DNA of 64,000 nucleotides from Persephonella sp. KM09-Lau-8. GTDB taxonomy: Bacteria; Aquificota; Aquificia; Aquificales; Hydrogenothermaceae. The translations under genes and the position numbers were made by a program. Shown here piece after piece: positions 25,041 to 29,144 of the stretch. The DNA is taken from the NCBI RefSeq assembly GCF_000703085.1, contig NZ_JNLL01000001.1:1550001-1614000 (forward strand), in the 5' to 3' direction. The first letter of the stretch is position 1. Every line of letters begins with the position of its first letter. Below the pieces are notes generated by a model. It was not told where the DNA came from, did no database searches, and saw nothing but the letters and a program-made list of their open reading frames with translations.

Positions 25041-26777
25041 ATGTCCTGGATAAGTCTTGACAAGATAAATAAATTGAAAGAAAGATTTGATTATGTAGAA
25101 ATAAATGAAAGTGATAAAGGTTTCCATTCTGTAAATGTTCCAAAAGAAAATCTAAAAGATTTTCTCAAATTCCTCAAAACTGACCCAGAATACAGTTTTA
25201 AAATGTTTATAGACTGGACAATTATAGACCATGGAGTAAAAGCAGACCCAAGATTTGAGGGTGTATTAATTCTATTTTCTCCAGAACATAAAGAGAGAAT
25301 AATTGTAAAATCCTGGGCTATAGATGAAACCCTCCCAACCTTGACAGATATCTGGCCAGGTGCAAAATGGGCAGAAAGAGAAGCCTGGGATATGTTCGGT
25401 ATAAAGTTTGAAGGCCATGAAAATCTGGTCAGAATGTTTATGTGGGAAACTTATCCATATCATCCTCTCAGAAAAGATTTCCCGTTAAGAGGACATGAAG
25501 AGGTTGAACTGCCATCTCTAAACGAAAAAGAGAGAATGGATCAGCTGGAAGGTCTTCAAAACTACTCAAGAATGCATACAGCCCTGCCAACGCTTGAAGA
25601 CCTTGAAATAACACAGAAAAAAAGATTACCAAATAAGAAATCACAGGTTGTTCTAAACTGGGGTCCTCTCCATCCAGGAACACATGGAACAATCTGGTTT
25701 TTATTTGATATGGAAGGTGAGTATGTTCAGGAGTGTGATATTATCATTGGACAGCTCCACAGGGGTGTTGAAAAACTTGCAGAAAACATGAATGTCCAGC
25801 AGATAATCCCTTACACAGACAGAATGGACTATATCGCCTCAATGAATGAAAACCATTCTGTATGTGTTGCAGCAGAAAAGCTCCTTGGGATACATGAAAA
25901 AATCCCTGAAAAAGCAAAATATATCAGAACAATGCTTGCTGAGCTTTCAAGAATAAACTCACACCTGCTCTGGCTTGGAACTTATGCACTGGACCTGGGT
26001 GCCCTGACAATGTTCCTGTACACATTCAGGGAAAGGGAAAAAATTATGGATATTTTTGAGGGTATCTCAGGTGCAAGGTTTACAATAAATTACTTCAGAG
26101 TAGGCGGTGTTTATGCAGACCTGCCTTATGGGGCTTTAGATGCTATTGAGCATTTTATAAAAGATTTCCCAACAAGATTAAGCGATTATGAAACACTTCT
26201 AACAAGAAATAGAATATGGCTCAAAAGAAATATAGATGTCGGAATCATTTCAGAAAAAGATGTTTATGATTACGGGCTTACAGGTGCAGTTGCAAGAGCT
26301 TCAGGGGTTCCTTACGACCTGAGAATCATAGACAAATATGATGCTTACGGTGAAGTTGAGTTTGACGTGCCTGTTGGAGAAAAAGGAGACTCTTACGACA
26401 GATATCTGGTCAGAATAGAAGAGATGAAACAGTCTGCAAGGATTGTTGAGCAGTGTATTGAAAAACTGAGAAAGATGTCAAAAAATGACCCATTCTTCTA
26501 TGAGCCTGAAGATAAAAAGATGAAAATTACAATAGACGGTAGAGGAACAAAACTATTCAAAGGTGAGGTTTACGCAGGAGCAGACAACCCAAGAGGTGAA
26601 CTTGGTGTTTATATTTACATGCCAAAAGATGGTATAAAACCACACAGATTTAGACTTAGATCTGGAGCATTTTACAACCTGCAGATATTCCCAAAACTTA
26701 TGATAGGAAGACCAATTGCAGATGCTATAACAATCCTTTCAACAATTGACCCAGTTGTTGGGGAAACAGACAGATAG
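25041..26777 (+). CDS. nuoCD: NADH-quinone oxidoreductase subunit C/D (fused)
   Basis: 578 residues. The first 190 are NuoC (30 kDa): FKMFIDWTIIDHG, PTLTDIWPGAKWAEREAWDMFGI, HPLRKDFPL. The rest is NuoD (49 kDa): LNWGPLHPGTHG, GQLHRGVEKLAENM, PYTDRMDYIASMNENH, and ending DPVVGETDR. It forms part of the quinone-reducing arm of complex I. Arg241 in LHRGVEKL corresponds in motif to the NDUFS2 arginine that is dimethylated in mitochondria. Only nuoI follows; the other complex I genes are not in the window, so the operon is dispersed. Confidence 0.96.
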   Translation: MSWISLDKINKLKERFDYVEINESDKGFHSVNVPKENLKDFLKFLKTDPEYSFKMFIDWTIIDHGVKADPRFEGVLILFSPEHKERIIVKSWAIDETLPTLTDIWPGAKWAEREAWDMFGIKFEGHENLVRMFMWETYPYHPLRKDFPLRGHEEVELPSLNEKERMDQLEGLQNYSRMHTALPTLEDLEITQKKRLPNKKSQVVLNWGPLHPGTHGTIWFLFDMEGEYVQECDIIIGQLHRGVEKLAENMNVQQIIPYTDRMDYIASMNENHSVCVAAEKLLGIHEKIPEKAKYIRTMLAELSRINSHLLWLGTYALDLGALTMFLYTFREREKIMDIFEGISGARFTINYFRVGGVYADLPYGALDAIEHFIKDFPTRLSDYETLLTRNRIWLKRNIDVGIISEKDVYDYGLTGAVARASGVPYDLRIIDKYDAYGEVEFDVPVGEKGDSYDRYLVRIEEMKQSARIVEQCIEKLRKMSKNDPFFYEPEDKKMKITIDGRGTKLFKGEVYAGADNPRGELGVYIYMPKDGIKPHRFRLRSGAFYNLQIFPKLMIGRPIADAITILSTIDPVVGETDR

Positions 26778-26787
26778 GAGGCTAAAA

Positions 26788-27489
26788 ATGGGGATTAAAA
26801 AAGTCGGTTTAAATAGAAACGTTCAGCCTCAGACTATAGCTGAAAAAATATTTTTCCTTGATTTTATGAAAGGGCTGAAAACAACAATAAAACACCTGTT
26901 CAGAAAAGTAATAACAGTAGATTTTCCTTTTGAGCTGGTAGAACCTGCCCCAAGATTTAGAGGTGTTCATGGCCTTAGGAATGTTGATGGAACAGAAAAA
27001 GATGACTTTGAGGCATGGGTCAAAAAGCTGAAAATTAAGCCCCCTGAAATGGGAGAAACCAGATGTATCGCATGTAAATTCTGTCAGGCTGCCTGCCCAG
27101 TCCCTGAGATATTCATAATCAAGGCAGAAAAGCTTGATGTTCCAGAAGACCACCCCCACCATGGCCTAAAGGTTCTAAGCCAGTTTGATATGGATTTATC
27201 AAAATGTATGTTCTGTGGATTATGTACACTGGCATGTCCAACAATATGTATTATTCATACTGATATTTACGACCTGTCTTCCTACACAAGAAGAGGATGG
27301 GTACTGGATAAAGATGTTCTATCTAAAATTGCTGATGACTTTATAGCAAGAAGAGGAAAAGAAAAATACGACGATAAATCAGAATGGCCAGACTGGCAGA
27401 AAATCTGGGATGATGCTGATGCCGCAAGGGCAAAAGCATGGGATAATAATCCTCCAAAACTTGGGCCAAACTACGCAGACCAGCAATAA
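26788..27489 (+). CDS. nuoI: NADH-quinone oxidoreductase subunit I
   Basis: 233 residues from the ATG at 26788, preceded by AGGAGG; an earlier in-frame ATG inside nuoCD has no ribosome site. Two 4Fe-4S motifs: C93, C96, C99 with C103, and C140, C143, C146 with C150, the N6a/N6b clusters of complex I. The segment between them is longer than in E. coli (EKLDVPEDHPHHG), and a C-terminal tail of about 70 residues is rich in Asp/Trp/Lys. Follows nuoCD by ten bases and ends at a terminator. Confidence 0.93.
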   Translation: MGIKKVGLNRNVQPQTIAEKIFFLDFMKGLKTTIKHLFRKVITVDFPFELVEPAPRFRGVHGLRNVDGTEKDDFEAWVKKLKIKPPEMGETRCIACKFCQAACPVPEIFIIKAEKLDVPEDHPHHGLKVLSQFDMDLSKCMFCGLCTLACPTICIIHTDIYDLSSYTRRGWVLDKDVLSKIADDFIARRGKEKYDDKSEWPDWQKIWDDADAARAKAWDNNPPKLGPNYADQQ

Positions 27490-27495
27490 AAAAAC

Positions 27496-27520
27496 AGGGG
27501 ATTTGCAGTCCCCTTTCTTT
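27496..27520 (+). terminator. Terminator after nuoI
   Basis: AGGGGA (27496-27501), seven-base loop, TCCCCT (27509-27514) and TTCTTT. Seven bases after the nuoI stop. Confidence 0.75.
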
Positions 27521-27563
27521 GCTTTATAATATTTCACCTTAATTTCTAACTGGTGGTTCTTTT

Positions 27564-28718
27564 ATGAAACTTACAGGTAAAGAAGAGCTTATATCAATAA
27601 TCAAAGACAGAATAAAATCTGAAGGGAAAATATCATTCAGAGATTTCATGGACATTGCCCTTTATTATCCGGAACTGGGATATTACACATCACCTGAGGA
27701 AAAAATAGGTGGTTTTGGGGATTTTTTCACAGCTTCAGAGCTGGATAGAGCCTTCGGAGAACTCCTAACAAAGCAGTTTGTTGAGATATACCACAAACTT
27801 GGAACAGATAAATTTCAACTTGTTGAACTGGGAGCAGGTAAAGGATACCTTGCTTACGATATTTTGAACTACTTGAAATCCCATTATCCAGATATCTATA
27901 AAAAAACTGAATACATAATCATTGAAAAATCTCCTTATCATATCCAGACCCAGAAAAAACTACTTTCAGAATTTGAAAATGTAAAATGGGTTCAGGACAT
28001 AATAGATTTTGAAGACGAAAGCATAACAGGTGTGATTTTTTCTAATGAACTGTTTGATGCTTTTCCTGTTCATCTTATTAGGAAAATAAAAGGCAAAATT
28101 TATGAAGTATTTATAACCCTTGATGAAAATGAGGAAGTTAAAGAAATTCTGGAAGAAGCAAACGAAGATATCCTCAGATATCTAAGGGAGCTAAATATCA
28201 ATATTCCAGAGGGTATGCAAACAGAAATAAATCTGGATGCCGTTGATTACATCAAAAAAATAGGCAGAAAACTAAAAAAGGGATATGTGATTACCATAGA
28301 TTATGGATATCCTTCTGCAGAGCTTTATAAACCATACAGAATGAGGGGAACACTCCTCTGTTATTACAGGCACAGATATTCTGAAAACTTTTATGAAAAT
28401 GTAGGAATGCAGGATATTACTTCTCACGTTAACTTTTCTGCATTGAAGTATTATGGGCATGTTGCAGGATTGGACTTTACAGGTTTTACAGACCAGGCAC
28501 ACTTTTTAACAAATTTAGGTCTTATGGATATCTTTGCACAACTACAGGAACAAAATGATATAGAGTCCTATGAAAGGTTGAACAGACTGAAAACTCTTGT
28601 TCTTCCAAAAGGAATGGGAGAAAAATTCAAGGTCTTAGTCCAGCATAAAAATGTTGAAAATCCACAAATTCAGGGGCTTGAAATGCTCCCTTACGCCAGT
28701 GATAGATATAAACTCTAA
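27564..28718 (+). CDS. MidA/NDUFAF7-type SAM-dependent methyltransferase
   Basis: 384 residues. GDFFTASELDRAFGELL and VELGAGKGYLAYDIL (SAM binding), IFSNELFDAFPVHLI and TIDYGYPSAELY are signatures of the COG1565 family. Its mitochondrial member NDUFAF7 symmetrically dimethylates an arginine of NDUFS2, the NuoD homologue, during complex I assembly. Here it lies directly after nuoCD-nuoI, though behind a terminator and with its own start region (short TTGG/GGTGG ribosome site). The bacterial substrate is inference, strongly suggested by position. Confidence 0.85.
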   Translation: MKLTGKEELISIIKDRIKSEGKISFRDFMDIALYYPELGYYTSPEEKIGGFGDFFTASELDRAFGELLTKQFVEIYHKLGTDKFQLVELGAGKGYLAYDILNYLKSHYPDIYKKTEYIIIEKSPYHIQTQKKLLSEFENVKWVQDIIDFEDESITGVIFSNELFDAFPVHLIRKIKGKIYEVFITLDENEEVKEILEEANEDILRYLRELNINIPEGMQTEINLDAVDYIKKIGRKLKKGYVITIDYGYPSAELYKPYRMRGTLLCYYRHRYSENFYENVGMQDITSHVNFSALKYYGHVAGLDFTGFTDQAHFLTNLGLMDIFAQLQEQNDIESYERLNRLKTLVLPKGMGEKFKVLVQHKNVENPQIQGLEMLPYASDRYKL

Positions 28719-28766: not shown

Positions 28767-29144
28767 ATGTTAGAAACCCTTCTTATGTCCATTGTTATTT
28801 TGGGAATAGGTAGTTTTTCCCTGTGGTATGCAGGCAGACTTGCACTTATAAGAAGTATTACACTAAAAAAGGCATTCATAATAACACTAATTGGATATGT
28901 GGGTATCGGGGCAGCAAGAGCTATTTTGATATACGCAGGTTACTATAAGCCGGGAATGTTATGGCTCCCTATTTTGATGGGACTTTTAATAGAAGGAATT
29001 CTTGTTCATCTATTTTTCAGGGAAAATCTGTTAAAAACAATTATAGCTGTCGTTGCAGGATTTATAATAACAGTTGTTTTAATACTACCTGTCTTCGTAA
29101 TAGCAGGCGGCTTATGGACTTATTTCAATATGCCCAAAGGTTGA
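28767..29144 (+). CDS. Unknown four-helix membrane protein
   Basis: 125 residues with four predicted membrane helices, at about 4-26, 36-58, 65-84 and 90-117, joined by very short loops (RSITLKK, YKPG, RENLLK). No conserved catalytic motif and no family that I recognise. It follows the MidA-type gene by 48 bases with GGAGAAAG as ribosome site, and the prfB promoter TTGACA begins at its stop codon. Function unknown. Confidence 0.7.
   Translation: MLETLLMSIVILGIGSFSLWYAGRLALIRSITLKKAFIITLIGYVGIGAARAILIYAGYYKPGMLWLPILMGLLIEGILVHLFFRENLLKTIIAVVAGFIITVVLILPVFVIAGGLWTYFNMPKG

Follow-up and report, generated by a model that had tools for sequence, protein, structure and literature searches.

Assembly of mitochondrial complex I requires NDUFAF7, which methylates Arg85 of the subunit NDUFS2 (PMC3829151), and symmetric dimethylation of this residue of the mature protein has been found in human as well as in bovine material (PMC3829151, PMC3750175). 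Arg65 of Nqo4 from Paracoccus denitrificans, the same residue of the same subunit and likewise from a bacterium, was shown to be symmetrically dimethylated in 2013 (PMC3750175), and in Yarrowia mutants in the equivalent, likewise dimethylated arginine, R121, lose cluster N2 (PMC8042128). Here we analyze a stretch of 64,000 nucleotides from Persephonella sp. KM09-Lau-8 (contig NZ_JNLL01000001.1, positions 1,550,001 to 1,614,000; the window), in which midA, a gene for a methyltransferase of the NDUFAF7 family, stands behind genes for the complex I subunits NuoCD and NuoI. The MidA protein encoded there is likely to be a complex I-dedicated arginine dimethyltransferase acting on NuoD. Gene order, fold, S-adenosylmethionine (AdoMet) motif, target arginine, gene neighbourhood and co-occurrence with NuoD were observed here; the reaction and its role are taken from the literature on mitochondria, and the same reaction would take place in Persephonella by analogy. 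The mark itself was seen by mass spectrometry on Nqo4 of Paracoccus, whereas on the NuoCD of the window it is predicted.

The window protein matches PF02636 over the full model (1-249) with 220 bits at a curated cut-off of 23.3, and its sequence matches 5ztz, the Dictyostelium NDUFAF7 homologue, with E 2.4e-22. An AlphaFold2 model (predicted local distance difference test score, pLDDT, of 92.7) superimposes on 5ztz with Z 38.9 and a root mean square deviation of 2.7 over 357 residues. The five nearest PDB entries, 5ztz and 5zu0 among them, are all COG1565 proteins (Z 38-44), and matches outside the family, to methyltransferases, start only at Z 15.5. With the human and Dictyostelium NDUFAF7/MidA proteins (5ztz, 5zu0) the window protein has in common the Pfam family, the full-length fold (Z 38.9-39.0, 357-359 residues), the AdoMet motif, the [NQ]E-[LF]FDA-P motif and the DYG motif, and the HRGxE target arginine is encoded in the window genome, too. 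It differs from them in that it is 26-27% identical, bacterial and encoded beside the gene for its putative substrate, and its activity is a presumed one. Residues E88, G90, G92, G94, N161, E162, D165, D246-Y247-G248 and D284 are invariant in 14 Aquificota MidA proteins. The closest solved structure is that of a COG1565 protein from Burkholderia thailandensis (4f3n, 4g67; Z 43.9, 32% identity), which was deposited as uncharacterized and therefore does not settle the function.

In the MidA tree, the Dictyostelium protein groups with that of Rhodopseudomonas (100/99), followed by Burkholderia, in agreement with the reportedly published alphaproteobacterial origin of the mitochondrial NDUFAF7 gene. 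The window protein resides in a separate, Aquificota-containing clade (99/97), and a larger clade with good support unites the three Aquificota lineages with an acidobacterium and Peribacillus. Judged from this separate position, the window MidA is a member of the family and not of the mitochondrial lineage; a narrow NDUFAF7 orthologue from the alphaproteobacterial/mitochondrial clade was rejected on the same grounds. A paper in Cell Reports from 2018 is said, going by its title and the papers citing it, to have argued for a proteobacterial origin of MidA methylation.

Arg241 of the window NuoCD (NuoCD2 in the following) lies, by residue count, within CDIIIGQLHRGVEKLAEN and aligns with the arginine of HRGxE at the position of NDUFS2 Arg85, just as an earlier note on this DNA had stated for the motif LHRGVEKL. 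Both domains of NuoCD2 (Complex1_30kDa, Complex1_49kDa) are matched, and the quinone-site motifs HPGTHG and TDRMDY accompany the HRGxE motif. The target arginine is kept in all canonical Aquificota NuoD proteins read and in 29 of 29 read from MidA-bearing Bacillota. Four MidA-bearing acidobacteria (G161, G165, G167, G170) have a threonine-type protein as their best NuoD (Thermus-like HTGFE/HTGIE), yet each possesses a second, arginine-type one (HRGVE), and every MidA-bearing genome with NuoD read, both in the set of 50 described below and in the Bacillota draw, offers an arginine copy. Aquificota without MidA exhibit diverged motifs (LHRMQEK, VTRNLEK) or solely hydrogenase-like NuoD. Four Bacillota (G178, G225, G264, G352) encode a divergent MidA in a long frame (540-1062 amino acids) and carry the NuoD motif HRNWEK instead of HRGxEK.

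In line with the earlier note, which placed a MidA-type gene directly downstream of nuoCD-nuoI, nuoCD2, nuoI2 and midA are arranged in tandem on the plus strand, with 74 bp between the nuoI2 stop and the midA start. This order recurs in 23 of 34 midA-bearing Hydrogenothermaceae genomes, namely in all 12 of the window genus and in genera g3, g4, g5 and g9 (the latter read across a contig end); in the other 11 (genera g2, g6, g7, g8, g10) midA is located elsewhere. Outside this family, complex I genes occur within 6 kb of midA at 13 of 74 loci (80 named loci were fetched by MidA alignment). In eight cyanobacteria ndhH, the nuoD counterpart, stands beside midA on the same strand, on either side, and one further cyanobacterium has ndhC-K-J-like genes near midA. 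Two Nitrospirales carry nuoA-nuoB-nuoCD downstream of midA, while nuoA-nuoB are found near it in one acidobacterium and nuoL-M-N in one bacteroidete. NuoD genes neighbour midA ten times in 50 genomes, as compared to 0.25 expected by chance from genome sizes and copy numbers, a figure that ignores shared ancestry; counted as separate events, the clustering amounts to about one per phylum in five phyla including Aquificota. The adjacency of nuoCD and midA is not due to chance, since it is found repeatedly within the family (23 of 34 genomes) and, separately, outside it. No published link of ndhH or cyanobacterial NDH-1 to NDUFAF7 was found in a search that left most subscription journals outside.

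The two proteins also go together across genomes, in counts that cover lineages outside the Pseudomonadota. A set of 50 genomes with MidA comprises Bacillota, Bacteroidota, Cyanobacteria, Desulfuromonadales, Nitrospirota, Acidobacteriota and Methanoperedens; in 48 of them NuoD scores above the curated cut-off, the two exceptions having fragmentary or hydrogenase-like NuoD hits only. Complex I has a scattered distribution in Bacillota; among 249 of their genomes, drawn evenly, NuoD occurs in 25 of the 26 that have a strong MidA and in 59 of 223 others (P 2e-12). Among outgroup families of Aquificota, canonical NuoD (score class E about 1e-160 or below) is present in 11 of 13 MidA-bearing genomes, with fragmentary hits in the two exceptions, and in none of 16 lacking MidA (P 2e-6). 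One outgroup genus holds both states, with both genes in G082 and neither in G001 and G047. A rule of midA-nuo proximity across all Aquificota, the comparison suggested by the earlier note, was rejected, no nuo genes being present near midA in the regions read from Aquificaceae and family f4.

The earlier note had called nuoCD-nuoI isolated, which holds locally and fails at the level of the genome. A complete nuoA-B-CD-H-I-J-K-L-M-N operon resides on the same contig (G000:C1:45842-56022; the window pair begins at 1575041), such that the genome has a single midA but two nuoCD and two nuoI genes. This makes the window pair a paralogous second copy, and the idea of a dispersed sole copy was dropped. 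The main-operon protein, NuoCD1, also bears the target motif, as HRGVEKIAEN, and HRGVEK is common to both copies. MidA had further been proposed to assist complex I assembly from dispersed operons; this finds no support, since the main operon is intact, the window pair is a second copy and midA of Nitrospirales precedes an ordinary nuoA-nuoB-nuoCD. In the NuoCD tree, the window copy groups with CD2 of Aquificaceae (support 100/98) and is orthologous to it, and nuoI2 forms a separate clade in its tree. In several Aquificaceae, the first nuo set is followed in tandem by a complete second one, nuoA2-CD2-H2-I2-J2-K2-L2-M2-N2. In contrast, only nuoCD2-nuoI2 were seen in Hydrogenothermaceae, with midA attached in half of the genera, and other second-set subunits elsewhere were not systematically searched for. 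A second nuoB was not seen in the second sets read (L107-L110). In the relative G036, hydrogenase-4/formate hydrogenlyase membrane-type genes, which by eye resemble those for HyfB, HyfC, HyfE and HyfF, follow directly 3' of nuoCD2-nuoI2-midA (L053 549-5612). Upstream of the main nuo operon a gene for a large RecD-like helicase is followed by Cas1-/Cas2-like genes, assigned by eye (L035 225-5314). It is conceivable, though doubtful, that NuoCD2-NuoI2 constitutes an exchangeable half of the Q module which replaces NuoCD1-NuoI1 on a single membrane arm, giving rise to a second form of complex I in Hydrogenothermaceae, e.g. for another quinone or electron donor, and that MidA was recruited alongside because this form needs dimethylation of Arg241 for N2.

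If the analogy holds, AdoMet-dependent MidA would symmetrically dimethylate the HRGxE arginine of NuoD, that is Arg241 of NuoCD2 and very likely also its counterpart in NuoCD1, the main-operon protein. The HRGxE arginine adjoins both cluster N2 and the interface between NuoB and NuoD; given this position, dimethylation would help NuoD to join NuoB and would stabilize N2 during assembly of the Q module.

Several observations weigh against such a role or restrict it. In E. coli, Arg249 of NuoCD is present but unmodified (PMC3750175). The dependence of MidA on NuoD is one-way, as 59 Bacillota have NuoD and lack MidA, and in Bacteroidota NuoD is found in 174 of 198 genomes and MidA in one of 198; none of the co-occurrence counts is corrected for shared ancestry. 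The arginine is kept in 57 of 61 NuoD proteins from MidA-lacking Bacillota, the remaining four having threonine, as in Thermus, so that a strict coupling of MidA loss to arginine loss had to be abandoned. So had the notion that complex I strictly requires MidA in every case, in view of the Bacteroidota and many Bacillota without it. Since NuoD is common without MidA in these two phyla and, in Bacillota, mostly still of the arginine type, complex I does not depend on MidA in general, and because the arginine is often retained without MidA, as in E. coli, bacteria use the dimethyl mark as an optional refinement.

MidA could alternatively be a general methyltransferase for another substrate, a small molecule or another protein, its place behind nuoCD2-nuoI2 being the frozen accident of one ancestor of the family. 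Such an accident would fit the mobility of midA, which in other Hydrogenothermaceae stands beside thiG/rlmN, tal or glmS-like genes and in the regions read from Aquificaceae is set apart from nuo genes, a further point against a dedicated enzyme, as well as the hairpin and -10-like element of its own in the window genus. We nevertheless judge it improbable, as four other phyla show separate clustering of midA with genes of the nuo/ndh type and MidA depends almost absolutely on the presence of NuoD. A function as DNA methyltransferase regulating expression has been proposed for MidA of Wolbachia, on the basis of a PacBio signal in E. coli expressing the protein (PMC12455994). This report also speaks against a NuoD-directed enzyme; the signal is weak, without a clear motif and termed preliminary by its authors (PMC12455994), and the co-occurrence of MidA with NuoD, the proximity of midA to nuo genes and a fold in common with the Dictyostelium NDUFAF7 homologue all point to a protein substrate, which renders DNA methylation by the window protein highly implausible.

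A narrower variant, according to which MidA serves the NuoCD2-NuoI2 complex only and not NuoCD1, draws on the gene order in 23 genomes and on the tight nuoI2-midA spacing in three genera. We consider it unlikely, because both NuoCD copies have an identical HRGVEK, genomes of other phyla with a single NuoD also carry MidA, and Aquificota outside the Hydrogenothermaceae keep MidA without CD2 beside its gene. As the pairing of MidA with its target holds across many bacterial phyla, the window MidA very probably represents an ancient and otherwise ordinary enzyme of complex I assembly, and the data are best explained by a dimethyltransferase of this kind that extends to bacteria and archaea well outside the Proteobacteria. 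Neighbourhood, co-occurrence and the retained arginine argue for a functional link of MidA and NuoD outside the Proteobacteria. The earlier note's proposal that the modification predates mitochondria is not new, the bacterial mark having been shown in Paracoccus in 2013 (PMC3750175). The present analysis seems to contribute the wide occurrence beyond Proteobacteria, the recurrent clustering with NuoD/NdhH and a dependence on NuoD that runs in one direction.

The features of the locus are compiled in Table 1. In the window genus, the gap between nuoI2 and midA measures about 43 to 97 bp and usually contains a GC-rich stem-loop. Stems like the hairpin at 27496-27514 precede midA in most relatives of the genus and are absent from genera with gaps of 0-10 bp, and TTTATAATAT, the -10-like region ahead of midA, is conserved in most of these relatives as well. 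Because hairpin and TATAAT occupy the gap, co-transcription of nuoI2 and midA is doubtful in the window genus, where midA is probably transcribed from a promoter of its own. In genera g3-g5 the nuoI2 stop is separated from the midA start by 0-10 bp or overlaps it, suggesting that the two genes are translationally coupled. A hydrophobic protein of 125 amino acids, for which no family was found in Pfam or NCBIfam searches, is encoded behind midA in many Hydrogenothermaceae (window, L003, L005, L013, L023, L053). Its gene accompanies midA even where nuoCD2 is not adjacent and almost abuts it in some genera; the protein may work together with MidA or with complex I.

Table 1. Features of the nuoCD2-nuoI2-midA locus (positions in the window).
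Feature	Positions	Strand	Evidence or remarks
nuoCD2 (578 aa; fused NuoC-NuoD, second copy)	25041..26777	+	PF00329 E 2.2e-38, PF00346 E 2.7e-90
Arg241 codon in LHRGVEKL of NuoCD2	25761..25763	+	residue count; HRGxE motif as in NDUFS2
nuoI2 (233 aa, second copy)	26788..27489	+	two CxxCxxCxxxCP cluster motifs; NCBIfam NuoI families, best E 1e-31
Terminator-like hairpin between nuoI2 and midA	27496..27514	+	
TATAAT, -10-like, ahead of midA	27525..27530	+	
midA (384 aa; COG1565/PF02636 methyltransferase, NDUFAF7 family)	27564..28718	+	PF02636 E 4.3e-65
AdoMet-binding motif I of MidA, E88-LGAGKG-94	27825..27845	+	invariant residues in 14 Aquificota MidA
125-aa hydrophobic, probably membrane, protein	28767..29144	+	no Pfam/NCBIfam match; prfB next downstream

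Within complex I, the dimethylated arginine beside N2 is conserved and of medical relevance, and its role continues to be debated. Should the link in bacteria be true, MidA would be an old, optional and complex I-dedicated enzyme of Aquificota, Cyanobacteria, Nitrospirota, Acidobacteriota, Bacillota and Methanoperedens. Its gene could in that case be deleted from simple hosts that are easy to manipulate, such as the cyanobacteria in which midA and ndhH are neighbours, by which the effect of the methyl groups would become separable from that of the arginine, and relatives with and without MidA among the Bacillota and the outgroup families of Aquificota would provide ready-made natural controls.

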